Positions 6,512 to 48,666 of a DNA stretch of 64,000 nt are shown one piece after another. Under the pieces are notes generated by a model that was given only the letters and a program-made list of their open reading frames with translations, did no database searches and was not told the DNA's origin. The first letter of the stretch is position 1; the number at the start of each line of letters is the position of its first letter. The translations under genes were made by a program, and so were the position numbers. Origin of the DNA: Pseudooceanicola endophyticus. GTDB taxonomy: Bacteria; Pseudomonadota; Alphaproteobacteria; Rhodobacterales; Rhodobacteraceae. The stretch spans positions 1 to 64,000 of the forward strand of contig NZ_JAHIAB010000004.1 in NCBI RefSeq assembly GCF_018760365.1, given 5' to 3'.

Positions 6512-6600
6512 TCGCGAGGGTCGTCTGCTCTCTTCTGCGATGCACGCGGAAGTGATATGAATCAGCTAGGCAGAAAACCTGAATCATAATCGGGGCAAAC

Positions 6601-7098
6601 ATGAAACGGGCAGTGATTTTCCTGGCCCTGGCGCTCACCATGGCGCTGGCAGGCTGTGGAGCAAAGTCGATCCGGACCTATGACGGGCCGGACGTGACGC
6701 GGATTCTCGTCTACAAGGGCGACCGCAAGATGTACCTGATGCACGGCGGGCAGCCACTGAAGGTCTACAATATCAAGCTGGGCTTCGATCCGGTGGGGCC
6801 GAAGCAGTTCAGCGGCGATGGGAAGACGCCCGAGGGCACCTACCTGATCGACCGGCGCAATCCGAACTCGCAGTTCCACCTCTCGGTCGGGATCTCCTAT
6901 CCCAACCCGCAGCAGATGGCCTTCGCGTCGGAGCAGGGCAAGCAGCCCGGAGGCGACATCTTCATCCACGGCGCGCCGAACTCCGGTGCCGACGTGGTGG
7001 GCGACTGGACGGCGGGCTGCATCGCCGTCACCAATGCCGATATCGAGGAGATCTGGTCGATGGTTCCGGACGGGACGCTGATCACGATCTACCCCTGA
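6601..7098 (+). CDS. L,D-transpeptidase (YkuD) lipoprotein
   Basis: A 165-residue exported protein. The signal peptide ends in a lipobox (LAGC, lipidated C19). The YkuD catalytic site is H123 (HGAPN) and C140 in DWTAGCIAVTN, the usual HxG...S/TxGC pattern. It should cross-link or anchor peptidoglycan peptides through meso-diaminopimelate at the periplasmic face. A second YkuD protein lies 0.85 kb downstream with a Tat-type signal, and a CAP-domain lipoprotein lies between them, so the three form an envelope-remodelling neighbourhood. Confidence 0.92.
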   Translation: MKRAVIFLALALTMALAGCGAKSIRTYDGPDVTRILVYKGDRKMYLMHGGQPLKVYNIKLGFDPVGPKQFSGDGKTPEGTYLIDRRNPNSQFHLSVGISYPNPQQMAFASEQGKQPGGDIFIHGAPNSGADVVGDWTAGCIAVTNADIEEIWSMVPDGTLITIYP

Positions 7099-7131
7099 GG
7101 CACCCTTTCGCGGCTTCGGCCCGAGTGTTGC

Positions 7132-7167
7132 AAAAAAGCCCGGCATCGCAGGATGTCGGGCTTTTTT
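7132..7167. terminator. Bidirectional intrinsic terminator
   Basis: A perfect stem pairs AAAAAGCCCGGCATC with its complement around a GCAG loop and carries A and T runs on its two flanks. It lies between the convergent L,D-transpeptidase (ends 7098) and CAP lipoprotein (ends 7207) and should stop transcripts from both sides. Confidence 0.93.
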
Positions 7168-7206
7168 ACTAGCATACTTCCGCCGATGCTTCGGCGGAAA
7201 GGTGCC

Positions 7207-7767
7207 TCAGGAACCGCTGCGATCGACGCGTTCGGTGCCCGGATCGGGCAGGGTGGAGCCGACGACCATGGTCCACCAGATCTTGCCGGTGGGCTCCTGG
7301 TACCAGGCCAGGCCCATGTCGGTCGCGGATTTATCAAGCATCACGCGGCGGGTGTCTTCCTCGTTCGACCAGGCTGCGAGGGTCTCCAGCTCGGTCTCGT
7401 AGGTCTCCGAGATATCCTCGCCGACAAGGCGACCCTGGTAGCCCACGCGCTCCACCCGGTCGATCGGGGAGGAGCCGTCGGAGCCAAAGTGCCAGGGGCG
7501 ATTTTGTCTAGACATATCAAGGGAATGGGTGGCTGCCGCGGCGGTCAGCTTGGCGTTCAGCTGCAGCGGCGGAGCGCCCGCGGCGGCGCGCAGAGCATTG
7601 ACGGAGTCGAGGACTTCGTAGGGGATCTTGCTCTCCGCATCCCGGGGCATCTTGTAGACTTTTGGCAAGGGTTTGCCGTCCGGTCCCATGCGTGGCGCCT
7701 GCGGCGTGGTAGTGGAGCACGCCGAGAGGGCCAGCGTTGCCGAGATCAAGAGAGGTAGAATGCGCAT
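7207..7767 (-). CDS. CAP (SCP/PR-1) domain lipoprotein
   Basis: A 186-residue protein with a lipobox (LSAC, C17) and then a CAP domain. The domain shows the usual VNALRAAAG-x-PPL-x-LN-x-KL-x2-AA opening, an H-S-x2-M segment, GE-DIS and a GLAWY...WWTMV ending. Bacterial CAP proteins are extracytoplasmic and mostly of unknown activity. Here it is probably held at a membrane leaflet by its lipid. It sits between two L,D-transpeptidase genes and is convergent with the first. Confidence 0.88.
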   Translation of the reverse strand: MRILPLLISATLALSACSTTTPQAPRMGPDGKPLPKVYKMPRDAESKIPYEVLDSVNALRAAAGAPPLQLNAKLTAAAATHSLDMSRQNRPWHFGSDGSSPIDRVERVGYQGRLVGEDISETYETELETLAAWSNEEDTRRVMLDKSATDMGLAWYQEPTGKIWWTMVVGSTLPDPGTERVDRSGS

Positions 7768-7947
7768 TCAGATCCTGCCCGATTAGGTGTGTTGGAAACC
7801 CGCTTAGCGCGGCGCAAAGACCTTAGCAAACGCACAAGCGGGTGAGAAAGTTCGCTGACACTTGTGTGAGTTGCCGCTACACGCTCTCAGCCCTACCTTT
7901 TGGCGGCATTTTCGGTGCATACGTACCGCGAGGTTACGGAGTCCTTC

Positions 7948-8562
7948 ATGAAACCCAACAACAAGACCACGCGCCGTGCCTTCCTGGCCAGTGGCGCCGC
8001 GCTGATCGCCACTCCGGCGCTGGCGCAGACCCATTCCGCCGCCTACGAGGCGCCGTTCGAAACCCCCGAGGCAGTCGAACGCGATCCGGCCAAGGCGGCA
8101 CGGCGCAACATCTCGTCCTTCCGGACGCTGGACTGGCAGCCGTATTTCGACAACACCAAGAACGGTGTGATCCTGGTCGATATCGACAGCCGGGCGCTGC
8201 ATTTCTGGTCCGAGGACCAGTCGATCTACAAGCTCTATCCGACCTCGGTGCCGCTGACCGAGGACCTGACGCGCCGCGGCCGCACCCGTGTCGTGCTCAA
8301 GGATCCGCATCCCGACTGGCGCCCGACGCCGGCGATGAAGGCGCGCGATCCGGAATGGCCCGATTACATCCCGCCGGGCCCGGAAAACCCCCTTGGCACC
8401 CGCGCCCTGCACCTGAGCTGGACCTACTACCGGATCCACGGAACCCAGGATACGCGCAAGATCGGACGCCAGTCCTCGAACGGCTGCATCGGCCTTTATA
8501 ACCAGCATATCGAGGAGCTTTACGACCTCGCCGTGGTGGGGACGCAGGTGTTGCTAATTTGA
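7948..8562 (+). CDS. L,D-transpeptidase with Tat-like signal
   Basis: A 204-residue exported YkuD protein. The N-terminus has a twin-arginine motif (TTRRAFLAS, R9-R10), a hydrophobic segment and ALA cleavage near residue 26. The active site is IHG...SNGCIGLYN, so His and Cys are both present. I chose the ATG at 7948 because the signal peptide begins there; the open frame starts 48 bases earlier at 7900. It is an ErfK/YbiS-type L,D-transpeptidase that probably forms 3-3 cross-links or attaches proteins to peptidoglycan. Confidence 0.92.
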   Translation: MKPNNKTTRRAFLASGAALIATPALAQTHSAAYEAPFETPEAVERDPAKAARRNISSFRTLDWQPYFDNTKNGVILVDIDSRALHFWSEDQSIYKLYPTSVPLTEDLTRRGRTRVVLKDPHPDWRPTPAMKARDPEWPDYIPPGPENPLGTRALHLSWTYYRIHGTQDTRKIGRQSSNGCIGLYNQHIEELYDLAVVGTQVLLI

Positions 8563-8604
8563 CCACAGGTCGGCGACAAGCGTAGGGCGAAATCCAACTT
8601 GGAA

Positions 8605-8632
8605 TTGCTTTTGATCCGGCGCGTTCTATTAC
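8605..8632 (+). promoter_or_regulatory. Candidate sigma-70 promoter for the 60-residue gene
   Basis: TTGCTT and TATTAC are separated by 16 bp, about 90 bases before the ATG at 8720. The match to consensus is moderate and no transcript start is known. Confidence 0.35.
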
Positions 8633-8719
8633 ATCAGACTCACGAGGTAAGTCTTAGAGCCGCCCTCAATGTGTCTGGCGATCGTGTTCAGGACAGGCGG
8701 CAATTATCTGGAGGATAAC

Positions 8720-8902
8720 ATGAAGAAACTCGTTCTCGCAGCCGCTCTCGCAGGCGCCGCAACCACCGCTTCCGCAGGCTCGCTGGCTCAGCCGGTCATC
8801 GAAGCACCGGTCGTCGTCGAAGAGACCACCAGCTCGTCCACCGGCATCATCGTGCCGCTGATCATCCTGGCCGTCGTCGCTGCTGCAGTCGCATCCAACT
8901 GA
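8720..8902 (+). CDS. Small secreted/membrane protein of unknown function
   Basis: A 60-residue product. The N-terminal signal peptide (MKKLVLAAALAGAATTASA) is followed by a short Val/Glu/Ser-rich linker and a C-terminal hydrophobic stretch (GIIVPLIILAVVAAAVA) long enough for one membrane helix. GGAGG stands just before the start, at ideal spacing. The open frame begins 51 bases earlier, but this ATG has the ribosome site and the signal. It has its own terminator at 8923. I recognise no domain. Similar short proteins are common in Rhodobacterales, from memory. Confidence 0.8.
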   Translation: MKKLVLAAALAGAATTASAGSLAQPVIEAPVVVEETTSSSTGIIVPLIILAVVAAAVASN

Positions 8903-8922
8903 TCGCGCTGCACAGAGAATAG

Positions 8923-8953
8923 AAAAGGCGGTGGAGCGATCCACCGCCTTTTT
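8923..8953 (+). terminator. Intrinsic terminator
   Basis: GGCGGTGG (8927-8934) pairs with CCACCGCC (8941-8948) around AGCGAT. AAAA precedes and a T run follows. It ends the 60-residue gene and, being A/T-flanked on both sides, may also stop the convergent hemH transcript. Confidence 0.92.
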
Positions 8954-9016
8954 CTTTTGTCCCGACGTTGCGCGGGGCCGTGCCGAAACGGCCGCCGCGG
9001 CTGGGCAGGGGGCTGC

Positions 9017-10057
9017 TCAGGCGATCCAGCCCTGCAGGTTGGCCTCGATGCTTTGCATCAGCGCCGCGATATGGGCGTCGTCGTCGTTCAGGCAGGGGAT
9101 GTAGGTAAAGCTTTCGCCGCCGGCATGGACAAAGCTTTCCCGGATCTCCTCGTTGATCTCCTCCAGCGTCTCGATGCAGTCGGCCGAGAAGGCCGGCGAC
9201 ATGATCGCGATGCGCTTCTTGCCGGCCTGGGCCAGGCGCGCGACCTCTTCGACCGTGTAGGGCTTCAGCCATTCCTCGGGGCCGAATTTCGACTGGAAGG
9301 TGGTGATGATCCGGTCATCGGCCAGGCCCAGTTTTTCCTTCAGAAGGCGCGTCGTCTTGTGGCAGTGGCAGAAGTACGGGTCGCCCTCGTGCAGGTAGCG
9401 CTCGGGCAGGCCGTGGTAGGAGCACACCAGGATGTCGGGCTGTTCCGCCATCGGCGCCAGCACCCGCGTCACCGAGGCGGCCAGCGCATCGGTATAGGCG
9501 GGGCTGTCGAAATAGGGCGGCAGGGTGCGCGCGGCGGGCTGCCATTTTTCGTCCATCAGGGCGCGGAAGAACTGGTCGTTGGCCGTCGCCGTCGTGGCCC
9601 CGGCATATTGCGGGTAGAGCGGGCAGAATAGGATCTTGGAACAGCCCTGCGCCACCATCCGCCTGACCACCGACTTGGTGGAGGGGTTGCCGTAGCGCAT
9701 GCAGTAATCGACCACGACATTGCCTTCGCCGTAGCGCGTTTCAAGCGCGGTCTTCAGCTTGGCGTGCTGGGCCTTGGTGATCGTCATCAGCGGGGATTCG
9801 TCGGCCTCGTTGTTCCAGATCGACTTGTAGGCCTTGCCGGATTTCGACGGGCGCACCGTCAGCACGATGCCCTGCAGGATCGGCTGCCATTTCCAGGCCG
9901 GGTAGTCGATCACCCGCTTGTCCGACAGGAACTCCGACAGGTAGCGCCGCATGGAGCGGTAATCGGTGCCATCCGGCGTGCCGAGGTTGGCGATCAGGAT
10001 GCCGACCTTTTCGCGCGGCAGCGCGGGGTGGTCGGCGGGGCGGACGGCGTCTGTCAT
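9017..10057 (-). CDS. hemH: Ferrochelatase
   Basis: A 346-residue ferrochelatase, the last enzyme of protoheme synthesis (Fe2+ insertion into protoporphyrin IX). The N-terminal NLGTPDGTDY segment, the catalytic-histidine region SYHGLPERYLHEGDPY and the late SPAFSADCIETLEEI segment containing the conserved Glu are all present. Length is normal. It is encoded alone on the minus strand, convergent with the 60-residue gene and about 100 bp downstream of the methyltransferase on the same strand. Confidence 0.96.
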   Translation of the reverse strand: MTDAVRPADHPALPREKVGILIANLGTPDGTDYRSMRRYLSEFLSDKRVIDYPAWKWQPILQGIVLTVRPSKSGKAYKSIWNNEADESPLMTITKAQHAKLKTALETRYGEGNVVVDYCMRYGNPSTKSVVRRMVAQGCSKILFCPLYPQYAGATTATANDQFFRALMDEKWQPAARTLPPYFDSPAYTDALAASVTRVLAPMAEQPDILVCSYHGLPERYLHEGDPYFCHCHKTTRLLKEKLGLADDRIITTFQSKFGPEEWLKPYTVEEVARLAQAGKKRIAIMSPAFSADCIETLEEINEEIRESFVHAGGESFTYIPCLNDDDAHIAALMQSIEANLQGWIA

Positions 10058-10153
10058 TTGGGCACTCCTGAACTGGTCCGCCCCCGAGATAGCCGCTTGG
10101 ACCGGCAGGTCAATGGGCGGGGGCGCGGGGCGGCTGTGCAGGACGCCCGGGGA

Positions 10154-10981
10154 TCAGGATTTCAGGGGCTTTTCCGAGGTTCCGAGCGCCGCCGCCAGAG
10201 AGGTCATGGCCGAGCCGGGCCGCAGCGGTTGCTGCTGGCTTTCGTGGGGCGACCAGCCGGTCAGGGTGATCAGCTCGAACGTGGCGGGCACGCGGCCCTC
10301 GGGATCCGCGTAGCTTTGCTGGTACAGCTCCAGCGCGCGCAGGAAGACGGCACGCCGGGTCGGGCGGCGCAGCCGGTCGTTCAGGGCATTGCCCTCGCCC
10401 ATGGTGCGCAGGTCCTGAAGCAGGCGCAGCGGGTTGGCATATTGCACGCGGGTGCGGTCGTTGTCGGCCACCGGCAGGGCCAGGCCCGCACGTTGCAGCA
10501 GGGCACCCAGGTCGCGCACCTCGCCCATGGGGGCAATGCGGGGCGACAGGCCGCCGGTCACCTCGATCTCGGCCTGGCCGAGGCAGGCGCGCAGCTCGCT
10601 CAGGGTTTCGCCGCCGAAGAAGACGCCCAGGAACAGCCCGTCGGGGCGCAGGGCGCGGCGGCACTGGATCAGCTGGCCCACCGGATCGTTGCGCCAGTGC
10701 AGGTCCATCACGTGGATCACCAGGTCGGCCTCGCCCTCGGCAAGGGGCAGGGTGTCGGCGGATTCGACCAGGCGGGGGGCAACCGGCAGATCCGCCGCAA
10801 GCCCCTGCCAGTGCGCCGGAAAGGGTGTGATCAGCACCGCGTCGGTAAAGCTTTTCTTAACCATGGCCAGCCGATCCTGAAGGTCCTGTGCGACCAGGTC
10901 GTGCAGGAACAGGCCCTCGGGGGTGGCACGGGCGCGGCGGCGGGCAAGGGCTGCCATATCGGTAAGGATGGGCTGGGTCAT
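10154..10981 (-). CDS. NDUFAF5/BioC-like SAM-dependent methyltransferase
   Basis: A 275-residue class I methyltransferase-fold protein. It resembles the NDUFAF5 group found next to comF in many alphaproteobacteria: an N-terminal LARRRARA segment, FLHDLVAQDLQDRL, and a core with DLVIHVMDLHWRNDP followed by RRALRPDGLFLGVFFGGETL. The mitochondrial relative is a complex I assembly factor. Some bacterial members are annotated as malonyl-ACP methyltransferase, which I do not favour because no biotin genes are nearby. Its ATG shares the palindrome CATG (10979-10982) with the divergent comF start. Confidence 0.8.
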   Translation of the reverse strand: MTQPILTDMAALARRRARATPEGLFLHDLVAQDLQDRLAMVKKSFTDAVLITPFPAHWQGLAADLPVAPRLVESADTLPLAEGEADLVIHVMDLHWRNDPVGQLIQCRRALRPDGLFLGVFFGGETLSELRACLGQAEIEVTGGLSPRIAPMGEVRDLGALLQRAGLALPVADNDRTRVQYANPLRLLQDLRTMGEGNALNDRLRRPTRRAVFLRALELYQQSYADPEGRVPATFELITLTGWSPHESQQQPLRPGSAMTSLAAALGTSEKPLKS

Positions 10982-11738
10982 GGGATGGTTAGATAAGCGC
11001 CTTCAGGGCGCGGTGCAAACGGCGTTGCGGGTGATCTACCCGGCCCGCTGCCTGAGCTGCGGCGGTCAGGTGGAAAGCGATTTCGGCCTTTGCGCGGGCT
11101 GCTGGGCCGAGACGCCCTTTCTGGGCGGCACGGTTTGCGACAGCTGCGGCGCCCCGCTGCCCGGCGGCCCCGACGCGCAGGCCGCCCGGTGCGACCAGTG
11201 CCTTGCGGATCCGCCGCCCTGGACGCGGGGCCGCGCGGCGATGATGTACGAGGGGATGGGGCGACGGCTGGTGATGGGGCTGAAGCATGGCGATCGCCAC
11301 GACATTGCCGCCCCCGCCGCCGACTGGCTTCTGGAAAGCGCCGGCCCCCTGATCCGGTCGGGGATGATCGTCGCGCCGGTGCCGCTGCACTGGCGGCGGA
11401 TGATGTCGCGGGGCTACAACCAGTCCGCGCTTCTGTCGCGGCACTTAGCGGCGCGGCTGGCGGCGCAGGGCGCGCGCGACCTGCCCGACCTGCTGGTGCG
11501 GCGGCGCGCGACGCCAGGCCTGGATCACCGCAGCCGGGCCGAGCGGCACATGCTGCTGGAGGGCACCATGGCGGTGGACCGGCGCCACCTGGAGGTGCTG
11601 CGGGGCCGTCCGGTGCTGCTGGTGGACGATGTGCTGACCAGCGGCGCGACCTTTTCCGAGGCGACGCGGGCTTGCGTGGCGGCAGGTTCCGGGCCGGTTT
11701 CGGTTCTGGCTCTGGCGCGCGTGGCCAAAGCGCCTTAG
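10980..11738 (+). CDS. comF: ComF family phosphoribosyltransferase-like protein
   Basis: A 252-residue ComF/GntX-type protein. The N-terminal zinc-ribbon-like region has paired cysteines (CLSCG, CAGC, CDSCG, CDQC). The C-terminal PRTase domain has the phosphate-binding motif VLLVDDVLTSGAT. Members are linked to DNA uptake in naturally competent bacteria, but many Proteobacteria carry one with no known role. I took the ATG at 10980. The open frame begins at 10923, and a later GTG (11030) cannot be excluded. It is followed 35 bp later by grxC. Confidence 0.88.
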   Translation: MGWLDKRLQGAVQTALRVIYPARCLSCGGQVESDFGLCAGCWAETPFLGGTVCDSCGAPLPGGPDAQAARCDQCLADPPPWTRGRAAMMYEGMGRRLVMGLKHGDRHDIAAPAADWLLESAGPLIRSGMIVAPVPLHWRRMMSRGYNQSALLSRHLAARLAAQGARDLPDLLVRRRATPGLDHRSRAERHMLLEGTMAVDRRHLEVLRGRPVLLVDDVLTSGATFSEATRACVAAGSGPVSVLALARVAKAP

Positions 11739-11773
11739 GTTGCGGGGAAATCCCGGAACCGGAGGCCCCTCCC

Positions 11774-12034
11774 ATGCAGCCGATCGACATCTACACCACC
11801 CCGACCTGCGGCTTCTGCCAGGCCGCAAAGCGCCTGCTGACCCAGAAGGGCGCCGCCTTCAACGAGATCGACGTCAGCGCCGATCCCGACCTGCGCCAGG
11901 CGATGATGACCCGTGCCAGCGGCGGCTACACGGTGCCGCAGATCTTCGTCGGTGCGACCCATGTCGGCGGTTGCGATGACCTTTACGCGCTGGAACGCGC
12001 CGGCAAACTCGACGCGCTGCTCGAAGGCGCATGA
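11774..12034 (+). CDS. grxC: Glutaredoxin 3
   Basis: An 86-residue class I glutaredoxin. The active site is CGFC (residues 12-15), with TVPQIF cis-proline and GGCDDLYALE glutathione-binding segments. It reduces glutathionylated proteins and supports ribonucleotide reductase. The CGFC site is the variant I associate with Rhodobacterales GrxC, in place of the CPYC of enterobacteria. It is probably co-transcribed with comF. Confidence 0.94.
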   Translation: MQPIDIYTTPTCGFCQAAKRLLTQKGAAFNEIDVSADPDLRQAMMTRASGGYTVPQIFVGATHVGGCDDLYALERAGKLDALLEGA

Positions 12035-12159
12035 CGACGGCCGGCGTCCGGAGCGCCCGGGCGGGGCAGGGCGGAGGCCCTGCCTCTTGCCGCGTCGCCG
12101 GATGCCGACCCTTCCCTGTCCGCGACCTCTCCGTCGCGCCCAAGACCTGACACCAGACC

Positions 12160-12603
12160 ATGAGCGACGCCCGCAATTCCCTCGCCATCGCGCTGTTTTC
12201 CGAGATCCTGGCAGCCGATCAGCTGATCCGGAACCGCCTGTCGAAGGTGCTGCCCAAGGGGATGGAGCTGTCGCATTTCTCGGTGCTGAACCACTTGGCG
12301 CGGGCCAATACCGAACGCAGCCCGGCACAGCTGGCGCAGAGTTTTCACGTCACGCGCGGGGCGATGACCAACACGCTCTCGAAGCTGGAATGGGCGGGAT
12401 ACGTGCATATCCGCCCGGACTGGGACGATGCGCGGCGCAAGATGGTGGCGATCAGCCCGGCGGGCCGGATGGCGCGCGATGCCGCGCTGGCCGCCATCGC
12501 GCCGATGTTCGCGCAGGTCGTCGACGAGATGAGCGAGGACAAGGTGCGTGCCGTGCTGCCGATCCTGCGGGAGCTGCGCGGCAAGCTGGAAGAGGATCGC
12601 TGA
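12160..12603 (+). CDS. MarR family transcriptional regulator
   Basis: A 147-residue winged-helix regulator. The helix-turn-helix lies around SPAQLAQSFHVTRGAMTNTLSKLEWAGYV (residues 54-82), and the wing carries DDARRKMVAIS with the typical DxR. It should bind DNA as a dimer; ligand and targets are unknown. It follows grxC by 125 bp, in which I see no gene. Its stop codon is followed directly by repeat copy B. Confidence 0.92.
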   Translation: MSDARNSLAIALFSEILAADQLIRNRLSKVLPKGMELSHFSVLNHLARANTERSPAQLAQSFHVTRGAMTNTLSKLEWAGYVHIRPDWDDARRKMVAISPAGRMARDAALAAIAPMFAQVVDEMSEDKVRAVLPILRELRGKLEEDR

Positions 12604-12604
12604 A

Positions 12605-12662
12605 GGGGGGCTCTGCCCCCGTCTCCTGCGGAGACTCCCCCGGGATATTTTCGGCCAGATGA
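12605..12662 (+). repeat. Dispersed double-hairpin element, copy B
   Basis: GGGGGC-TCT-GCCCCC is followed by GTCTCC-TGC-GGAGAC, then TCCCCCGGGATATTTTCGG and a CAGATGA tail. It begins 1 base after the MarR stop codon. It may terminate or protect that transcript. Confidence 0.85.
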
Positions 12663-34244: not shown

Positions 34245-34844
34245 ATGGTACTGAAAATCCGGGGGGTGGCGCTGTGGCAGGGCCTGCTGGACCGCCCCGC
34301 GCAGGAGGCGATGCTGGCGGATCTGCGCGCCGTGGTGGCGCAGGCACCGCTGTTTTCGCCGCAGACCCGGTGGGGCAGGCCGATGTCGGTGCAGATGACC
34401 TCGGCTGGGCGCTACGGCTGGTATTCGGACCGGCGCGGCTACCGTTACGAACGCCGCCATCCTTCGGGCGGGGACTGGCCGGCGATCCCGGCCTCGGTGC
34501 TGGGCCTCTGGCGGCAGGTGACGGGACTGGAGCGCGATCCCGACTGCTGCCTGGTGAACCTCTATCGCGACGGCGCGAAGATGGGCCTGCACCAGGACCG
34601 CGACGAGGCCGACTTCCGCTGGCCGGTGCTTTCGGTGTCGCTGGGCGATGACGGGCTGTTCCGGATCGGCAATGTCGAGCGCGGCGGGCCGACGGAATCG
34701 GTCTGGCTGCGTTCGGGTGACGTGCTGGTGCTGGAGGGGGCGGCGCGGCTGATCCATCACGGGGTGGACCGGATCCGGCCCGGCAGCTCGACCTTGCTGG
34801 AGGGCGGCGGGCGGATCAACCTGACCTGCCGGGTGGTCGATTAG
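34245..34844 (+). CDS. alkB: AlkB-type Fe(II)/2-oxoglutarate dioxygenase
   Basis: A 199-residue DNA/RNA demethylase-like protein that oxidatively removes alkyl groups from bases. The Fe ligands are H116 and D118 (HQDRDE) and H172 (HHGVDR). The 2-oxoglutarate-binding RxNxTxR motif is R190-N192-R196 (RINLTCR). GCAGGAGAGG precedes the ATG at 34245; the open frame starting at 34155 lies in the dnaK promoter region. It is divergent from dnaK and convergent with the ABC-2 permease, overlapping it by 4 bases. No Ada-type regulator is nearby. Confidence 0.93.
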   Translation: MVLKIRGVALWQGLLDRPAQEAMLADLRAVVAQAPLFSPQTRWGRPMSVQMTSAGRYGWYSDRRGYRYERRHPSGGDWPAIPASVLGLWRQVTGLERDPDCCLVNLYRDGAKMGLHQDRDEADFRWPVLSVSLGDDGLFRIGNVERGGPTESVWLRSGDVLVLEGAARLIHHGVDRIRPGSSTLLEGGGRINLTCRVVD

Positions 34845-35659
34845 CGGGCCTTCCAGCTGGCCGATACATGGCGGCGGGTGTAGAATTCGCCAATCATCGC
34901 AAGGCAGAAGATCACCACCGAGACCCAGATCGCGTAGCGGAGCGAGGTGAAGTGCGGCACGTAGTTGATGAACACGTGGCCGCGGGTCTGGTCGATGGTG
35001 TGAAACAGCGGATTCCAGTCGAAGATGTCGCGCATCTTGGTGGGCAGGGTATTGACCACGAACATCTTGCCCGAGGCGATCATGTTGGCGCGCCGGTAGA
35101 ACTGCGACAGGATGTTGGCGAAGGTCGGGGCCCAGGGTTTCAGCGCGGCAAAGGCCACGCCCACCGCGATGCCGAAGCCCCAGGCGACCAGGATGCAACC
35201 GAAGGCGCCCAGCGGCTGGTAGATCTCGAACGGGCCGTGGATCAGGTGGTAGCCCACCAGGATGATGAACAGGCACAGCACCTGGATATAGAGCGCCGAG
35301 AGCGCCGAGGAGGCGAGCGCGACCAGCGTGTTGATCGGCCGGTGCTGGCGCATGGCGCTGAAGGCGCTGCTGGCCCCCATCACCGCCGAAACGGTCTGCA
35401 CATGGGTCCGGTACAGGAACACGCCGGACAGCATGAACAGCAGGAAATCGCCGCGGATCGCGGTGTTGCGCAGGCCGAACAGCAGGAACATCAGGTAAAA
35501 GACGCTCATCATCACGGCGACGCGCAGCAGGTTGTTGAGCAGCGAGAAGAGCGCGCTGCGATGCGTCTTGCGGATGTCGTGGGCGGTGGAGTGGAAGATC
35601 AGCTCGGCCATGGAGAGGGCCGATTGCAGGGTGCTGCGCGGGACGGGCTTTTCGAACAT
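34841..35659 (-). CDS. ABC-2 type polysaccharide export permease
   Basis: A 272-residue integral membrane protein of the KpsM/Wzm/RfbA type. There are about six hydrophobic segments, the first after a 30-residue cytoplasmic N-terminus containing SMAELIFHSTAHDIRKTH. The tail shows the FYRRANMIASGKMFVVNTLP and WNPLFHTIDQTRG segments common in capsule/O-antigen permeases. It should export a glycan with an ATPase partner, but no KpsT/Wzt ATPase is in the window. It stands next to galU and the glycosyltransferase block on the opposite strand, and its 3' end overlaps alkB by 4 bases. Confidence 0.85.
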   Translation of the reverse strand: MFEKPVPRSTLQSALSMAELIFHSTAHDIRKTHRSALFSLLNNLLRVAVMMSVFYLMFLLFGLRNTAIRGDFLLFMLSGVFLYRTHVQTVSAVMGASSAFSAMRQHRPINTLVALASSALSALYIQVLCLFIILVGYHLIHGPFEIYQPLGAFGCILVAWGFGIAVGVAFAALKPWAPTFANILSQFYRRANMIASGKMFVVNTLPTKMRDIFDWNPLFHTIDQTRGHVFINYVPHFTSLRYAIWVSVVIFCLAMIGEFYTRRHVSASWKAR

Positions 35660-36101: not shown

Positions 36102-36995
36102 GTGAAAAACAAAGTCACCAAAGCGATTTTCCCCGTCGCGGGTCTGGGCACCCGCTTCCTGCCGGCCACCAAATCCGTGCCGAAGGAGATCATGACCCTC
36201 GTCGACCGTCCGCTGATCCAGTACGCGATCGACGAGGCCCGCGCCGCCGGTATCACCGAGTTCATCTTCGTGACCTCCAAGGGCAAGTCCGCGCTGGAAG
36301 ATTACTTCGACCACTCCGCCGTCCTCGAGGCCGAGCTTGAGGCGAAGGGCAAGACCGACCTGCTGGAAGTCCTGCAGCAGACCTACATGGAATCCGGCCA
36401 GATTGCCTACATCCGCCAGCACAAGGCCCTTGGCCTGGGCCATGCCGTGTGGTGCGCCCGCCGCCTGATCGGCGACGAGCCCTTCGCGGTCATCCTGCCC
36501 GATGACGTCATCGCCGCCGAGAAACCCTGCCTGGCGCAGATGATCGAGGCCTTCGAGGAAGAACCCGCCTCCATGGTCGCGGCCATGGAAGTGCCCGCCG
36601 ACAAGGCGAAATCCTATGGCGTGCTCGACATTGCCGAGGACAAGGGCGACGTGGTGAAGGTCAAGGGCATGGTCGAAAAGCCCAAGGCCGGCACCCAGCC
36701 CTCCAACCTGGCGGTGATCGGCCGCTACGTGCTGCAGAACTCGGTCATGCAGAACCTCGACCAGCTGAAGACCGGCGCCGGCGGCGAGATCCAGCTGACC
36801 GACGCCATCGCGGACGAGATCAGCGCCGGCCGCAAGGTCCACGGCTTCCGCTTCAAGGGCCAGCGTTTCGACTGCGGCTCCAAGGCGGGCTTCCTGCAGG
36901 CCACCGTCTCCTTCGGCCTGTCGCGCGACGACCTGAAGGACGAGCTGATGGAATACCTCCAGGACGTCGTCTCGGTGAAGACCGCCGCGCAGTAA
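36102..36995 (+). CDS. galU: UTP-glucose-1-phosphate uridylyltransferase
   Basis: A 297-residue GalU making UDP-glucose, a precursor of exopolysaccharide, capsule and glycolipids. The nucleotide-binding opening FPVAGLGTRFLPATKSVPKE is followed by FAVILPDDVI and VEKPKAG segments. It begins with GTG after GAGGA; the conserved N-terminus begins exactly there. The glycosyltransferase block follows 126 bp later on the same strand, so sugar-nucleotide supply and use are adjacent. Confidence 0.96.
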   Translation: MKNKVTKAIFPVAGLGTRFLPATKSVPKEIMTLVDRPLIQYAIDEARAAGITEFIFVTSKGKSALEDYFDHSAVLEAELEAKGKTDLLEVLQQTYMESGQIAYIRQHKALGLGHAVWCARRLIGDEPFAVILPDDVIAAEKPCLAQMIEAFEEEPASMVAAMEVPADKAKSYGVLDIAEDKGDVVKVKGMVEKPKAGTQPSNLAVIGRYVLQNSVMQNLDQLKTGAGGEIQLTDAIADEISAGRKVHGFRFKGQRFDCGSKAGFLQATVSFGLSRDDLKDELMEYLQDVVSVKTAAQ

Positions 36996-37121
36996 GCCGA
37001 AGCCGGTTGCGCAACAGGGGGCGGTCCTGCGGGGCCGCCCTTCGCCTGGTCCGGGCCTTGCCTCTTGACCGGAGATCGCCGGGGGCGCCACTCTTCCGGC
37101 GGGGACCGGGAGGAGGACAGG

Positions 37122-38156
37122 ATGCGCAGCCCATGGCGGCATCTGCAGCGTGCGCGCGTGGCCTTCCGGCAGCGCCGGCGCCGCCAGCTTTATCTGTGGC
37201 GGGCCTTCCGGGCGCGGAGGGACCTGCGCAGGGTGGCCGACCGCAGCGCGGCGATCCGCCCCGGGGACGTGCTGCTGTTTTGCGTCCTGCGCAACGAATC
37301 CCTGCGGCTGCCGCAGTTCCTGGCCCATTACCGGGCCCTCGGCGTCGCGCATTTCCTGATCGTCGACAATGCCAGCACCGATGGCAGCGCCGCGCTGCTG
37401 GCGCGCCAGCCCGATGTCTCGCTCTGGTACAGCGGCGCCTCCTACCGGCGGGCGCGGTTCGGGATCAACTGGCTCAATCACCTGCTGGGGCGCTACGGGC
37501 ACGGCCATTGGTGCGTCATCGCCGATGCCGACGAGCTGCTGGACTATGCCGGGTCCGATCACCGCCGCCTGCCGGCGCTGGCCGCCCGGCTGGAGGCCCG
37601 CGGCCAGATGGTGATGGGGGCCTTCCTGCTTGATCTCTTCCCGAAGGGGCGGCTGGGCCTGCGCACCTACCAGGCCGGTCGCGATCCGCTGGAGGTGCTC
37701 ACGCAGTTCGATCCCGGGCCGTTCCGCGCCCGGCGCCAGGCGCCGATGGGCAATCTCTGGCTGCAGGGCGGCACCCGGGACCGGGTGTTCTTCGCGGACC
37801 AGCCCGCGCGCGCGCCGACCCTGAACAAGCTGCCCTTCCTGCGGTGGGATCGCCGTTATGCTTTCGTTAACTCTTCACATTCCATACTCCCTCCCGGGCT
37901 GAATGCCTTCTACTCGGGTCCCGGCGGCCCGTTCTTCAACGGCGTTCTGCTGCATACGAAATTCCTGCCCGATGTGCTGGACCGGGCGCGGGAGGATCTG
38001 TGCCGCAGCCAGCATTTCAACAGTCCCGACCTGTACCGGGACTATTACGAGGCGATCCTGAAGGCGCCGGATCTGTCCTGCCCGGACACCCTGCGTTTCG
38101 CCGGCACCGGGGGGCTGGTGCGTATCGGCCTGATCAGTTCGGACGAGGGGCTGTAG
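37122..38156 (+). CDS. Family 2-type glycosyltransferase (Glyco_tranf_2_4-like), paralogue 1
   Basis: A 344-residue protein. A basic N-terminus (Arg-rich residues 1-40) precedes the glycosyltransferase core: LLFCVLRNESLRLPQFLAHY, FLIVDNASTDGS and the metal-binding DADE in HWCVIADADELLDY. NKLPFLRW and LLHTKFLPD follow. The core resembles PF13704-type enzymes of roseobacters. It transfers an unknown sugar, probably in the cytoplasm for a surface glycan. GGGAGGAGGAC gives a strong ribosome site at 37122. The next gene is clearly a paralogue, which suggests local duplication. Confidence 0.85.
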   Translation: MRSPWRHLQRARVAFRQRRRRQLYLWRAFRARRDLRRVADRSAAIRPGDVLLFCVLRNESLRLPQFLAHYRALGVAHFLIVDNASTDGSAALLARQPDVSLWYSGASYRRARFGINWLNHLLGRYGHGHWCVIADADELLDYAGSDHRRLPALAARLEARGQMVMGAFLLDLFPKGRLGLRTYQAGRDPLEVLTQFDPGPFRARRQAPMGNLWLQGGTRDRVFFADQPARAPTLNKLPFLRWDRRYAFVNSSHSILPPGLNAFYSGPGGPFFNGVLLHTKFLPDVLDRAREDLCRSQHFNSPDLYRDYYEAILKAPDLSCPDTLRFAGTGGLVRIGLISSDEGL

Positions 38157-38259: not shown

Positions 38260-39312
38260 ATGTGGGTGCGGGCCTTCGGGCCCCGGAGGCGGAACGCGGA
38301 TTTGGGGCTTCACGACGCATACAGGCTGCGCAAATGGCGCCGCAGGCGCGCCTTGCGGGGCTTTCTGCATGGCCGCAGGCTGCGCCTGGTGCAGGACCGG
38401 CTGGATCGCATCGGCGGCAGCGACATCCTGCTGTTCGCCACCCTGCGGAACGAGAAGATCCGCCTTCCCTATTTTCTGGATTATTACCGCCGCCTCGGCG
38501 TGGATCATTTCCTGATCGTCGACAATGGCAGCACCGACGGCGCGGCGGATTACCTGGCGGAGCAGGGCGATGTCACGGTCTGGTACACCGAGGACAGCTA
38601 CCGCGAGGCCGCCTTCGGCATGGACTGGATCAACCACCTGCTGCGGCACCACGGCCACGGCCACTGGGTGCTGGTGGTCGATCCGGACGAATTCCTCGTC
38701 TACCCGTTCTGCGACACCCGTCCGCTGTCGGCGCTGACCAGCTGGCTGGATACCTCAGAGATCCGCAGCTTCGGGACCATGCTGCTGGACATGTATCCCA
38801 AGGGCCCGCCCGAGGCGCAGCCCTACCGGGAGGGGCAGGACCCGCTTGAGATCGCCGCCTGGTTCGATTCCGGCAATTACACGATCCGCCGGAACGAAAC
38901 CTTCGGGAACCTCTGGATCCAGGGCGGCCCGCGGATGCGCAGCTTCTTCCGCGAGACGCCGGAACGGGCGCCGGCACTGAACAAGATCCCGCTGGTGCGC
39001 TGGCACAAGAGCTATGTCTATGAAAGTTCTACGCACATGCTGCTCCCCCGGGGGCTGAATCTGGTCTACGATCCCTGGGGCGGAGAGAAGGCAAGCGGCG
39101 TGCTGCTGCACACGAAATTCCTCCATACTTTCGCGGCGAAGGCCGCCGAAGAGGTGCTGCGCGCAGAGCATTACCAGGCCGGGCGGGAATACCACGCCTA
39201 TGATGCCGATCCCGATGCGGTGGCGCAGCTCTGGTGCAAGTGGTCGGAGAAATACATCAACTGGCGGCAGCTCGAGGTGCTCGGGCTGCTGTCGAAGGGG
39301 AACTGGGCCTGA
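38260..39312 (+). CDS. Family 2-type glycosyltransferase (Glyco_tranf_2_4-like), paralogue 2
   Basis: A 350-residue paralogue of the preceding gene. Shared segments are LLFATLRNEKIRLPYFLDYY, FLIVDNGSTDGA, WINHLLRHHGHGHW, the metal site DPDE (DADE in paralogue 1), LNKIPLVRWHKSY and GVLLHTKFLHTF. It differs in its C-terminal 40 residues, which carry QLWCKWSEKYINWRQLEVLGLL. The acceptor and donor are unknown. The gap of 103 bp to paralogue 1 has no terminator, so co-transcription is likely. Confidence 0.85.
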   Translation: MWVRAFGPRRRNADLGLHDAYRLRKWRRRRALRGFLHGRRLRLVQDRLDRIGGSDILLFATLRNEKIRLPYFLDYYRRLGVDHFLIVDNGSTDGAADYLAEQGDVTVWYTEDSYREAAFGMDWINHLLRHHGHGHWVLVVDPDEFLVYPFCDTRPLSALTSWLDTSEIRSFGTMLLDMYPKGPPEAQPYREGQDPLEIAAWFDSGNYTIRRNETFGNLWIQGGPRMRSFFRETPERAPALNKIPLVRWHKSYVYESSTHMLLPRGLNLVYDPWGGEKASGVLLHTKFLHTFAAKAAEEVLRAEHYQAGREYHAYDADPDAVAQLWCKWSEKYINWRQLEVLGLLSKGNWA

Positions 39313-39325
39313 TGGGGGGATCCGG

Positions 39326-41023
39326 GTGACGGTCGGCATCGTGATGTTGGTTCACACGGCCCTGGGCCGGGCCGAGCAGGTGGCCCGGCACTGGAGCGCA
39401 GGGGGCTGCCCGGTGGTGATCCATTGCGATGCCCGCGTGCCCGACCGGCAATATGGCCGCCTCCAGCGGGCGGTGGCCGATGATCCCGGGATCAGCTTTG
39501 CCCGCCGCTACCGCTGCGAATGGGGCACCTGGGGGCTGGTCGCGGCCACCCAGGATGCCAGCGAACGGCTGCTGCGCGCCCATCCCGACATCGGCCATGT
39601 CTTCCTGACCTCGGGGTCCTGCCTGCCGCTGCGCCCCGTGCAGGAGCTGGTGAACTACCTGGCCGCCCGCCCGATGACCGATTTCATCGAAAGCGCCACC
39701 ACCGAGGACGTGACCTGGCCGGTCGGCGGGCTGGATCGCGAACGCTTCCTGCTGCGCTTCCCGTTTTCGTGGAAACGGCACCGGAGGCTGTTCGACGGCT
39801 ATGTGCGGCTGCAACGGCGGGTGGGCTTCAGTCGCCGCCTCCCGCCCGGCATCGTGCCGCATATGGGCAGCCAGTGGTGGTGCCTGACCCGCCGGACTCT
39901 CTCGGCGATCCTCGAGGATCCGAACCGCCGGGCCTACGACCGCTATTTCCGAAAGGTCTGGATCCCCGACGAAAGCTATTTCCAGACCCTGGCACGGCGC
40001 TGGTCCCGGCAGCTGGAAAGCCGGTCCCTGACGCTGTCGAAGTTCGATTTCCAGGGCAAGCCGCACATCTTCTACGACGATCACCTGCAGCTGCTGCGGC
40101 GTTCGGACTGTTTCGTCGCCCGCAAGATCTGGCCGCGTGCCGGCAAGCTGTACCGGGCCTTCCTGACCGACGGCCAGGGCGCGATGAAGCGGGCCGAGCC
40201 CAATCCCGGCAAGATCGACCGGATCTTCGAAAAGGCTTCGGGCCTCCGGACGCGGGGGCGCACCGGCCTTTACATGCAGAGCCGCTACCCGAACGAGGGC
40301 TGGGACAACGGGCTGACCGCCGGGCGCTACTCGGTCTTCCAGGGCTTCACCGAGGTTTTCGAGGATTTCGTGCCCTGGCTGGAACGTCATGCCACCGCCC
40401 GGGTGCATGGCCACCTGTTCGGGCCGGGCGATGCCGCCTTCGCCGGCGGGCAGCAGATCCTCAACGGCGGGTTGCTGTCCGATGCGGTGCTGCGGGACTA
40501 CGCGCCGCGCGATTTCCTGACCAACCTGATCTGGAACACCCGTGGCGAACGCCAGGTCTTCCAGTTCTCTGCCTGGGCCAACCAGGCGCTGATCTGGGAT
40601 ATCGCCAAGGATCCCAACGCCCATGTCTCGGTGATCACCGGTGCCTGGGCGGTGCCGCTCAGCCGCTCCGAACTGGGCTTCGCAGAGGTCAGGGCCGAGG
40701 CCGCGCGCCTCCAGAAGCAGGAGAGCGCCTTCCTGGAGGCGCTGCGCTCGCCCTATGCGCGGGCGCGGGTGATGGTCTGGAGCATGGCGCATTTCATCCG
40801 CGCGCCGATGGTGCCGTTGCAGAGCGCGATCGAGGTGATCGGGCCGCGCAAGGCCGCCCCGCTGGCCGAGGCGCCGACCCTGGTCTCGCTCGAGGGGTTC
40901 CCGCAGTTCCTGCAGACCCTGAAGAACAATGGCATGCACCCCTTCCTGGTCGGTGACTTCCCGACCGGGACAGAGCCGCAGCCTCCGCCGCAGCAGGCGC
41001 GGCCCTATCTGGTGCGGCAGTAG
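39326..41023 (+). CDS. Core-2/I-branching-type glycosyltransferase with C-terminal extension
   Basis: A 565-residue protein. The N-terminal half (about residues 1-260) matches beta-1,6-N-acetylglucosaminyltransferase-like (GT14) enzymes: MLVHTALGRAEQVARHW, HCDARVPDRQY, a VFLTSGSCLPLRPVQEL segment and HMGSQWWCLTRRTL. The remaining about 300 residues form a separate domain (NEGWDNGLTAGRYSVFQGF and later segments) that I recall as a Rhodobacterales-specific unknown domain (DUF5927-like, from memory). It starts with GTG at 39326 after GGGGGGATCC; the open frame upstream overlaps paralogue 2. The stop overlaps the sulfotransferase start region. Confidence 0.85.
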   Translation: MTVGIVMLVHTALGRAEQVARHWSAGGCPVVIHCDARVPDRQYGRLQRAVADDPGISFARRYRCEWGTWGLVAATQDASERLLRAHPDIGHVFLTSGSCLPLRPVQELVNYLAARPMTDFIESATTEDVTWPVGGLDRERFLLRFPFSWKRHRRLFDGYVRLQRRVGFSRRLPPGIVPHMGSQWWCLTRRTLSAILEDPNRRAYDRYFRKVWIPDESYFQTLARRWSRQLESRSLTLSKFDFQGKPHIFYDDHLQLLRRSDCFVARKIWPRAGKLYRAFLTDGQGAMKRAEPNPGKIDRIFEKASGLRTRGRTGLYMQSRYPNEGWDNGLTAGRYSVFQGFTEVFEDFVPWLERHATARVHGHLFGPGDAAFAGGQQILNGGLLSDAVLRDYAPRDFLTNLIWNTRGERQVFQFSAWANQALIWDIAKDPNAHVSVITGAWAVPLSRSELGFAEVRAEAARLQKQESAFLEALRSPYARARVMVWSMAHFIRAPMVPLQSAIEVIGPRKAAPLAEAPTLVSLEGFPQFLQTLKNNGMHPFLVGDFPTGTEPQPPPQQARPYLVRQ

Positions 41024-41028
41024 TGCCC

Positions 41029-42438
41029 ATGCCCCGGTTCGATTGCTTCATCCTGTTTGCCGACATGCGCACCGGCTCGAATTTTCTCGAGACGAACCTG
41101 AATGCCTTTGCCGGGGTGACCTGCCACGGAGAGGTCTTCAATCCGCATTTCGTCGGCTACCCGAACCGCAGCGACTGCCTGGGGATCTCCAGGGCTGTAC
41201 GCGATGCCGATCCGGGGCGGATGCTGGCGGCGCTGCGCGCGGCGCCGGGGCTGAACGGGTTTCGCTTTTTCCACGACCATGACGCACGGGTGCCCGAGGC
41301 GCTGATCGCCGATCCGCGCTGTGCCAAGATCGTGCTGGGGCGCAATCCGCTCGACAGCTACGTGAGCTGGAAGATCGCCCGGGCCACCGACCAGTGGAAG
41401 CTGACCGATGTGCGGCGGCGGCGCCAGCAGCGCATCCGCTTCGATCCGGAAGAATTCCTGCGTTTTTGGGAGGGCATGAAGCAGTTCCGCCTGCGGCTGC
41501 TGCGCCGGCTTCAGGACAGCGGCCAGGCTGCCTTCTGGCTGGATTACGAGGACCTGCGCGCGCTGGAGGTGATCAACGGGCTGGCCGCCTTCCTTGGCGT
41601 GCAGGAACGGCGCGGGGCGCTGGACGACAGCCTGAAGGTGCAGAACCCCGGTCCGCTGGAGGACAAGGTCGAGAATCCGGAGGAGATGCGCGCGGCGCTG
41701 GCGCGTCTGGACCCCTTCGGTCTGGACCGGGTGCCGGATTTCGAGCCTGGGCGCGGGCCGAGGGTCCCGGGCTTCATCGGCGGACGGCGGGTGCCGCTGC
41801 TGTTCCTGCCGGTGCCCGGGGGGACGGAGGTCGATCTTGCCGCCTGGCTGGAAGCGGTCGAAGGCGGCGCGGTGGAGCGGGACTTCAACCGCCGGCGCCT
41901 GCGGGACTGGCAGGCGGGGCACCCGGGCCATCGCAGTTTCACGGTGATCCGCCACCCGCTGCCGCGCCTGCACGAGGTGTTCTGCCGCAAGATCCTAGAT
42001 CCCGGGCCGGGGCACCTGCCCGAGATGCGGCGCATTCTGGTCAACAGATTCGGGATGAAGCTGCCAGACAGCCTTGGGCCCGGTTACGGGGCAGAGGCGC
42101 ATCGGGCGCTGTTCCGGGACTTTCTGGAGTTTCTCAAGGCCAATCTGGCGGGGCAGACCGGGCTGCGGATCGATGCCCACTGGGCCAGCCAGGCGGCCGT
42201 GCTGGAAGGGATGGCGCCGGTGCTGAGCCCGGATCTGGTGCTGCGCGAAGAGGAGCTGCCGGAGATGCTGCCGGCCCTGGCGCAGCGGCTGGGCGGGCAG
42301 GCGGTGCCCCTGCCGGTGACGGCGTGGCGCCCGCCGGTGCCGCTGGAGGCGGTGCTGGAGCCGGAGATCATCGCCCGGGTCGAGGAGATCTGCCAGCGCG
42401 ACATGCTGGCCTTCGGATTCGGGCGCTGGCCGGGCTGA
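41029..42438 (+). CDS. Stf0-like sulfotransferase with a second, degenerate sulfotransferase domain
   Basis: A 469-residue protein. The N-terminal half (about residues 1-240) resembles Stf0 sulfotransferases: FILFADMRTGSNFLETNL contains the PAPS-loop motif (RTGSN), and KIVLGRNPLDSYVSWK the 3'-phosphate-binding RNPLDSYVS. The C-terminal half looks like a Sulfotransfer_2-type domain: LFLPVPGGTEVDLAAWL replaces the usual IPKTGGTS loop and lacks its lysine, then FTVIRHPLPRLHEVFCRKIL follows. It probably sulfates a surface glycan. A GTG at 41023 overlapping the previous stop (TAGTG) is an alternative start. It closes the glycosyltransferase block and is followed by repeat copy E. Confidence 0.8.
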   Translation: MPRFDCFILFADMRTGSNFLETNLNAFAGVTCHGEVFNPHFVGYPNRSDCLGISRAVRDADPGRMLAALRAAPGLNGFRFFHDHDARVPEALIADPRCAKIVLGRNPLDSYVSWKIARATDQWKLTDVRRRRQQRIRFDPEEFLRFWEGMKQFRLRLLRRLQDSGQAAFWLDYEDLRALEVINGLAAFLGVQERRGALDDSLKVQNPGPLEDKVENPEEMRAALARLDPFGLDRVPDFEPGRGPRVPGFIGGRRVPLLFLPVPGGTEVDLAAWLEAVEGGAVERDFNRRRLRDWQAGHPGHRSFTVIRHPLPRLHEVFCRKILDPGPGHLPEMRRILVNRFGMKLPDSLGPGYGAEAHRALFRDFLEFLKANLAGQTGLRIDAHWASQAAVLEGMAPVLSPDLVLREEELPEMLPALAQRLGGQAVPLPVTAWRPPVPLEAVLEPEIIARVEEICQRDMLAFGFGRWPG

Positions 42439-48317: not shown

Positions 48318-48403
48318 TGGTGCCCAGGAGAGGACTCGAACCTCCACGTCCTTGCGAACACTAGCACCTGAAGCTAGCGCGTCTACCATTCCGCCACCTG
48401 GGC
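48318..48403 (-). tRNA. tRNA-Leu(CAG), copy 1
   Basis: 86 bases on the minus strand, from GCCCAGG to an encoded CCA. Acceptor GCCCAGG/CCTGGGC, anticodon stem CTAGC/GCTAG with loop TTCAGGT (anticodon CAG, reading CUG), a long variable arm typical of tRNA-Leu and a TTCGAGT T-loop are present. CUG is the dominant leucine codon in the genes here. Confidence 0.97.
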
Positions 48404-48580: not shown

Positions 48581-48666
48581 TGGTGCCCAGGAGAGGACTC
48601 GAACCTCCACGTCCTTGCGAACACTAGCACCTGAAGCTAGCGCGTCTACCATTCCGCCACCTGGGC
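48581..48666 (-). tRNA. tRNA-Leu(CAG), copy 2
   Basis: Identical in its 86 bases to the copy at 48318-48403, 263 bases away, with the same upstream promoter region and its own terminator. The two are separate transcription units produced by a tandem duplication; the terminators have diverged while the tRNAs are the same. Confidence 0.97.

Follow-up and report, generated by a model that had tools for sequence, protein, structure and literature searches.

The locus examined here, in Pseudooceanicola endophyticus, encodes a sulfotransferase immediately behind a glycosyltransferase gene. The protein appears to contain two sulfotransferase domains, the second with a degenerate donor site, and the question is what such a second domain does. 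We analysed a stretch of 64,000 nucleotides (contig NZ_JAHIAB010000004.1, hereafter the window) together with the corresponding genes of related genomes. We consider it probable (roughly 0.6) that the gene encodes a bidomain carbohydrate sulfotransferase, in which an active N-domain would modify a surface glycan and a conserved pseudo-sulfotransferase C-domain would hold the acceptor or a partner. The computed evidence comprises both folds, conservation of the N-terminal site, loss of the C-terminal one, purifying selection, synteny, co-occurrence and the presence of a PAPS synthetase gene; from it we infer the activity, the acceptor, the cellular product and the binding role of the C-domain.

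Table 1. Features of the fused sulfotransferase locus, in window coordinates; residue numbers refer to the fused protein.
Feature	Position	Strand	Evidence or remark
KpsM/VexB-like polysaccharide ABC-transporter permease	34841..35659	-	NF011723 1.1e-12, NF050053 1.8e-11; far below curated cut-offs
galU-like UTP-glucose-1-phosphate uridylyltransferase	36102..36995	+	named from sequence; 66/80 named loci
Second GT2-type glycosyltransferase (Glyco_tranf_2_4)	37065..38156	+	best match in 28/80 named loci
GT2-type glycosyltransferase (Glyco_tranf_2_4)	38260..39312	+	best match in 79/80 named loci
GT14 (Branch) + DUF5927 glycosyltransferase	39311..41023	+	Pfam PF02485 4.1e-16, PF19349 6.8e-134
Fused sulfotransferase gene	41029..42438	+	open frame, ATG at 41029, 469 aa
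N-domain, residues 1-240, NodH/Stf0-like sulfotransferase	41029..41748	+	intact R14-T-G-S-N18, E35, R105, S113
C-domain, residues 244-469, predicted Sulfotransfer_2-like fold without loop Lys	41758..42435	+	PF03567 profile, hhalign, predicted structure
Degenerate 5′-phosphosulfate loop, residues 260-267 (LPVPGGTE)	41806..41829	+	no basic residue
Partly kept 3′-phosphate motif, R308-HPLPRLH-E316	41950..41976	+	Glu replaces R+8 Ser

Orthologue starts line up with the ATG at the head of the fused frame. A GTG in the same frame, at 41023, is a possible alternative start and overlaps the stop codon of the GT14-DUF5927 gene, which ends 5 bases upstream of the ATG; this short spacing and the overlapping GTG indicate that the two genes are probably translated together. 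The protein carries the motifs RTGSN (14-18), RNPLDSYVS (105-113), LPVPGGTEVDL (260-270) and FTVIRHPLPRLHEVFCRKIL (304-323). Its Pfam scores of 20.1 bits for Sulfotransfer_1 and 17.8 bits for Sulfotransfer_2 stay below the cut-off, which is 22 in both cases, and NCBIfam, searched at E up to 0.01, assigns no family to the fused sulfotransferase or to the three upstream glycosyltransferases. Among the aligned orthologues, Sulfotransfer_1 matches 63 of 80 (E up to 1, best 5.1e-6). The whole-protein model reaches a pTM of 0.55, with pLDDT below 50 at residues 229-241 and an uncertain interdomain geometry, and Foldseek searches with it return sulfotransferases mixed with nucleotide kinases. Since the VIA-align rows for the whole model cover only residues ~1-245, the C-domain was modelled by itself. 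Taken together, these analyses and those described below assign two sulfotransferase folds to one chain, NodH/Stf0-like in the N-half and Sulfotransfer_2-like in the C-half, in line with the original prediction that two different families had been fused.

The 5′-phosphosulfate loop of NodH/Stf0-like enzymes contains an R-[TS]-G-S motif with a basic residue, and the 3′-phosphate site is marked by an Arg and a Ser eight residues further on. A motif check found both the basic loop residue and the Arg/Ser pair in the N-domain, as expected from the Stf0-like PAPS loop and RNPLDSYVS motif that the original prediction had pointed out. The assignment is supported by the match of the N-half to PDB 9vki, annotated as "LPS sulfotransferase NodH" (E 4.1e-6 with the single sequence, 3.1e-9 with the profile), and by the model, whose nearest structure is Stf0 1tex (Z 12.0, rmsd 3.7, 188 residues; rows within 1 Z are tied); all 50 structural matches listed are sulfotransferases. 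Conservation was assessed on 135 distinct orthologues, i.e. 154 loci minus 19 duplicates, window copy included, a non-random set in which the 30 added family-level loci are the best-scoring ones and 7 deep loci were chosen by hand. Left out were two paralogues (L035, L036), a broken frame (L062), two loci with the N-domain only (L172, L173), a split match (L206), loci with the N-half missing or off the contig (L208, L210), one at the same place as L033 (L213), paralogue matches, fragments and repeats (L217-L225) and genomes already counted (L118-L137). R14, G16, S17, N18, E35, R105 and S113 are invariant in all 135, while T15 is kept in 132 and is Ser in the other 3. E35 aligns with a Glu of 9vki and may correspond to the catalytic Glu of Stf0 (Glu36). 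The N-domain is best read as an active sulfotransferase, as its motifs and modelled fold suggest. Furthermore, PAPS can be made by this organism, since its genome encodes a 571-aa bifunctional ATP sulfurylase-APS kinase.

The gene belongs to a conserved neighbourhood. The GT14-DUF5927 frame is found in all 80 named loci (L037-L116), and in 78 of them it shares the strand of the fused sulfotransferase frame and stops within 400 bases of it; the two exceptions are L056, in which the stop-to-stop frames overlap by 1716 bases, and L062, with its broken frame. Further away, the KpsM-like permease occurs in 52 and ptsN in 74 of the 80 loci, some of which are cut by contig ends. A Pfam match of the permease to HCV_env (16.9 bits, cut-off 22) was discarded as spurious. 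Downstream, on the opposite strand, follow ptsN, hpf, lptB, lptA, lptC and rnd, all named from sequence. The window also contains two tRNA-Leu(CAG) genes at 48318-48403 and 48581-48666 (- strand), 263 bases apart from start to start; look-alike ORFs sharing the same initial residues overlap both and are probably spurious.

Matches to the fused sulfotransferase were obtained in 34 of 60 relatives, in 164 of 198 genomes of the family and in 143 of the 149 genomes of the order search, all of which belong to the same family as the window; an artefactual or chance origin of the gene is ruled out by the 164 family genomes. The figures 164 and 143 are slight overcounts, as G376, G377 and G479 contribute Sulfotransfer_2 paralogues and G484 a 93-residue remnant. 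Nearly all rows of the family search cover both domains, among the matches listed, and the named loci include, again among the matches listed, Pseudooceanicola, Roseovarius, Leisingera, Phaeobacter, Ruegeria and Sulfitobacter. Two loci titled Nocardioides marinus (L044) and Cytophagaceae (L050) have the family-typical arrangement and are probably mislabelled or contaminated. At the class level, 289 genomes gave six matches, four of them full-length and all from the same family, and two consisting of the N-domain alone. The stand-alone N-domain homologues, from other families of the class, are L204 (9178-9900, 241 aa) and L205 (8726-9613, 296 aa); within 19 kb around them there is no homologue of the window's other neighbour genes.

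The distribution of DUF5927 is closely similar. Among the 60 relatives it is found in exactly those 34 that have the fused sulfotransferase, and 162 of the 198 family genomes contain it, compared with none of 14 control genomes. Both genes are present in 159 of the 198 family genomes, the fused sulfotransferase only in 5, DUF5927 only in 3 and neither in 31 (Fisher p 1.3e-27, kinship ignored). The five sulfotransferase-only genomes comprise two with paralogues (G376, G377), one with the remnant (G484), one in which the locus meets a contig edge (G441) and one that lost the N-half (G456). G365 and G382 are DUF5927-only genomes, and G479, tallied as having both, really has DUF5927 only. In G486 (L226, ~6583-12618), galU, GT2, GT14-DUF5927 and ptsN follow each other in order, with ptsN directly after GT14 and no sulfotransferase in between. 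This is a natural deletion of the fused sulfotransferase, and the survival of the rest of the locus means that sulfation is not obligatory for the function of the GT14-DUF5927 protein.

As for the C-domain, sequence and predicted structure jointly support a Sulfotransfer_2-like sulfotransferase fold. With E values up to 1 admitted, the Sulfotransfer_2 profile (PF03567) matches 79 of the 80 aligned orthologues (best E 1.9e-13), and the C-half of the window protein scores 20.2 bits when taken alone, compared with 17.8 bits for the whole protein (cut-off 22). Profile-profile comparison by hhalign with eleven Sulfotransfer_2 paralogues of the relatives gives a probability of 98.8% over 217 columns. 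The domain modelled alone is predicted with confidence (pLDDT 95.4, pTM 0.91); its best VIA-align matches are the heparan sulfate 2-O-sulfotransferase 4ndz (Z 8.2, rmsd 3.9, 174 residues) and NDST1 9f6z (Z 8.0, rmsd 4.4, 181 residues). All 50 matches listed are sulfotransferases, although with modest Z values, and the alternative fold that would have contradicted the original prediction was not seen. Foldseek matches are weak, the best being 3rnl at E 0.012, and none reaches 0.001. When PDB sequences were searched with a profile of the C-domain, no match appeared up to E 10. With regard to the source of the domain, no close Lys-bearing single-domain relative stands out, the paralogues all scoring alike at ~25-37 bits.

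The donor site of this second domain is degenerate. The Sulfotransfer_2 loop motif is I-P-K-T-G-G-T, seen in paralogues, and the original prediction had rightly read LPVPGGTEVDL in its place, with the Lys missing. Exactly where the lost Lys stood is uncertain, as it falls opposite V262 according to the originally proposed motif or opposite G264 in profile-profile alignments with mostly Lys-bearing paralogues; at both positions Lys or Arg is found in none of the 135 orthologues. Accordingly, the fused, Lys-less form is conserved, and a recent inactivation confined to the genome of the window is ruled out. At position 263, 111 of the 135 have a Lys or Arg, the window protein, with its Pro, being one of the 24 that have no basic residue anywhere at 262-264. 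As to the 3′-phosphate site, R308 is kept in 126 of the 135, but the R+8 Ser (position 316) in only 17, a loss that goes beyond what had been noticed originally. Paralogues in the same genomes, in rows picked by motif search, have lost neither the Lys nor the Ser (VVPKCACST and RNPYTR[IL]LSS). One of them, L159, is encoded in the window's own genome (G000:C34:164967-165695, - strand) and is a Sulfotransfer_2 protein in which VVPKCACST and RNPYTRLLSS are both intact; an L159-like protein is the top match, at profile positions 3-252, in each of 22 same-genus genomes. The proposal that the C-half may be catalytically dead is thus supported as far as the missing donor-site Lys is concerned, whereas strict inactivity does not follow, given the K/R263 of the 111 orthologues. 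Indeed, K/R263 together with R308 makes a residual nucleotide or sulfate site possible in the C-domain of most members.

Both halves are under purifying selection, weaker in the C-half. In the 14 pairs that are not duplicates and share at least 85% identity, the NG86 dN/dS ranges from 0.02 to 0.16 (median 0.05) in the N-half and from 0.02 to 0.17 (median 0.12) in the C-half, the low end being rough because several pairs have dS >1. A set of 595 pairs, which includes duplicated genomes and distant pairs, gave medians of 0.30 (N) and 0.47 (C) and was not relied on. A drifting relic is not favoured as an explanation of the C-domain, since its dN/dS stays within 0.02-0.17 in all 14 pairs. The mean pairwise identity is 0.67 for the N-half and 0.53 for the C-half (600 sampled pairs, duplicates included); 65 positions of the N-half and 24 of the C-half are shared by at least 95% of the 135 orthologues.

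These data allow other views of the C-domain. It might be a second active sulfotransferase that works through a basic residue shifted to position 263, so that two positions would be sulfated and Pro263 of the window protein would be a secondary loss. The high frequency of K/R263 and of R308 speaks for this, and their losses are associated as if the two residues served one site: R308 is missing in 6 of the 24 orthologues without K/R263, against 3 of the 111 with it (Fisher p 0.001, descent uncorrected). That association, however, comes in part from the deepest branches, and deep members of the family have C-loops such as LTLAS, PLIEN and PLADR. With the R+8 Ser lost in 118 of the 135, and 24 orthologues, the window's included, devoid of a basic residue at 262-264, we regard a second active site as quite improbable. 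We give slightly more credit, while still thinking it unlikely, to the idea that the C-domain merely props up the N-domain as an internal pseudo-dimer, without touching an acceptor or partner itself. Its faster evolution means that its constraint could be structural only; within 244-469 just P310 and D458 are invariant, and the N-domain occurs without it in the 241- and 296-aa frames of the stand-alone homologues. Against this, R302, R313, R334, R380, Q388, D402, R406 and D458 are each kept in at least 95% of the 135 orthologues and suggest a maintained surface or pocket, although several of these polar residues could equally be structural.

A further doubt concerns the acceptor rather than the C-domain: the modified glycan may not derive from the neighbouring genes at all, the location of the gene being historical and another envelope molecule being the one sulfated. 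The G486 genome, which lost the gene and kept the rest of the locus intact, is in keeping with this, and ptsN, hpf, lptBAC and rnd look like housekeeping genes, so that conserved order alone is weak evidence. Yet the presence and absence of the fused sulfotransferase track DUF5927 across the 198 genomes, even if kinship is ignored in that count, and every one of the five sulfotransferase-only genomes is accounted for by paralogue matches, the remnant, the edge of a contig or truncation of the gene. An unrelated glycan therefore seems to us a minority view, with about one chance in a handful of being right.

According to the bidomain reading that we prefer, the N-domain would bind PAPS, with the R14-T-G-S-N loop holding the 5′-phosphosulfate and R105 and S113 the 3′-phosphate, and would move the sulfate to a sugar hydroxyl with E35 as the likely base. 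The acceptor would most likely be the glycan made by the products of the neighbouring galU, GT2 and GT14-DUF5927 genes, either a surface polysaccharide or a glycolipid. The C-domain would be derived from a Sulfotransfer_2 fold whose PAPS site was lost early in the history of the family, and would be retained as a non-catalytic module that most likely holds the acceptor chain or a partner, for instance the GT14-DUF5927 protein. The transfer step of this scheme draws on motif, fold and context; the holding role, which the original prediction had put forward as acceptor binding or scaffolding, is inferred. More tentatively, and with somewhat less than even odds, the protein may be a family-wide core enzyme whose pseudo-domain threads or positions the acceptor and which, with a dedicated GT14-DUF5927 partner, makes a sulfated surface glycan that is typical of Rhodobacteraceae and as yet undescribed.

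Members of the Rhodobacteraceae rank among the most common bacteria of the sea. If our reading is correct, most of them make a sulfated surface glycan by a single conserved pathway, which the literature searched does not describe; the fused protein would provide a clean model of a pseudo-sulfotransferase joined to an active one, and DUF5927, so far without a known function, would be placed in a context open to testing. Searches of openly licensed papers on DUF5927, on bifunctional, two-domain or pseudo-sulfotransferases and on Roseobacter or Rhodobacter sulfation yielded no paper recognisably on such a protein, and DUF5927 is not named in that literature. Both folds are already known, while a fixed fusion of an active and a degenerate domain, tied to GT14-DUF5927 across a bacterial family, was not found in that literature.

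Compared with known systems, the N-domain resembles NodH (9vki) in sequence and Stf0 (1tex) in fold, but the deposited chains of 9vki (264 aa) and 1tex (~240 aa) have no second sulfotransferase domain, unlike the window protein. The C-domain resembles Sulfotransfer_2 enzymes such as 4ndz in its profile match and fold, and shares the R-[HND]-P-x-x-R motif with the Sulfotransfer_2-family paralogues; it differs from them in the loop Lys, absent throughout the 135 orthologues, in the R+8 Ser and in being the C-terminal half of a fusion. A comparable design is DS-epi2 (DSEL), described in PMC4920151 as an epimerase with a C-terminal sulfotransferase-like domain. On that description, it is alike in that an enzyme modifying carbohydrates has been extended by a sulfotransferase-like domain, and different in that the partner is an epimerase and the protein is from animals. 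Finally, one genome (G022) encodes at another locus a 490-aa tandem protein (L035, 7799-9268, - strand) made of two Sulfotransfer_2-like halves, of which the first keeps the loop Lys (ITKCGC) and is the only one matched by Pfam, while the second has RHPVARLLSAY and no recognisable phosphosulfate loop. Although its first half is Sulfotransfer_2-like and not NodH/Stf0-like, and although the examination covered one genome, this tandem, judging from its motifs, is possibly a second, independent pairing of an active with a degenerate sulfotransferase domain.
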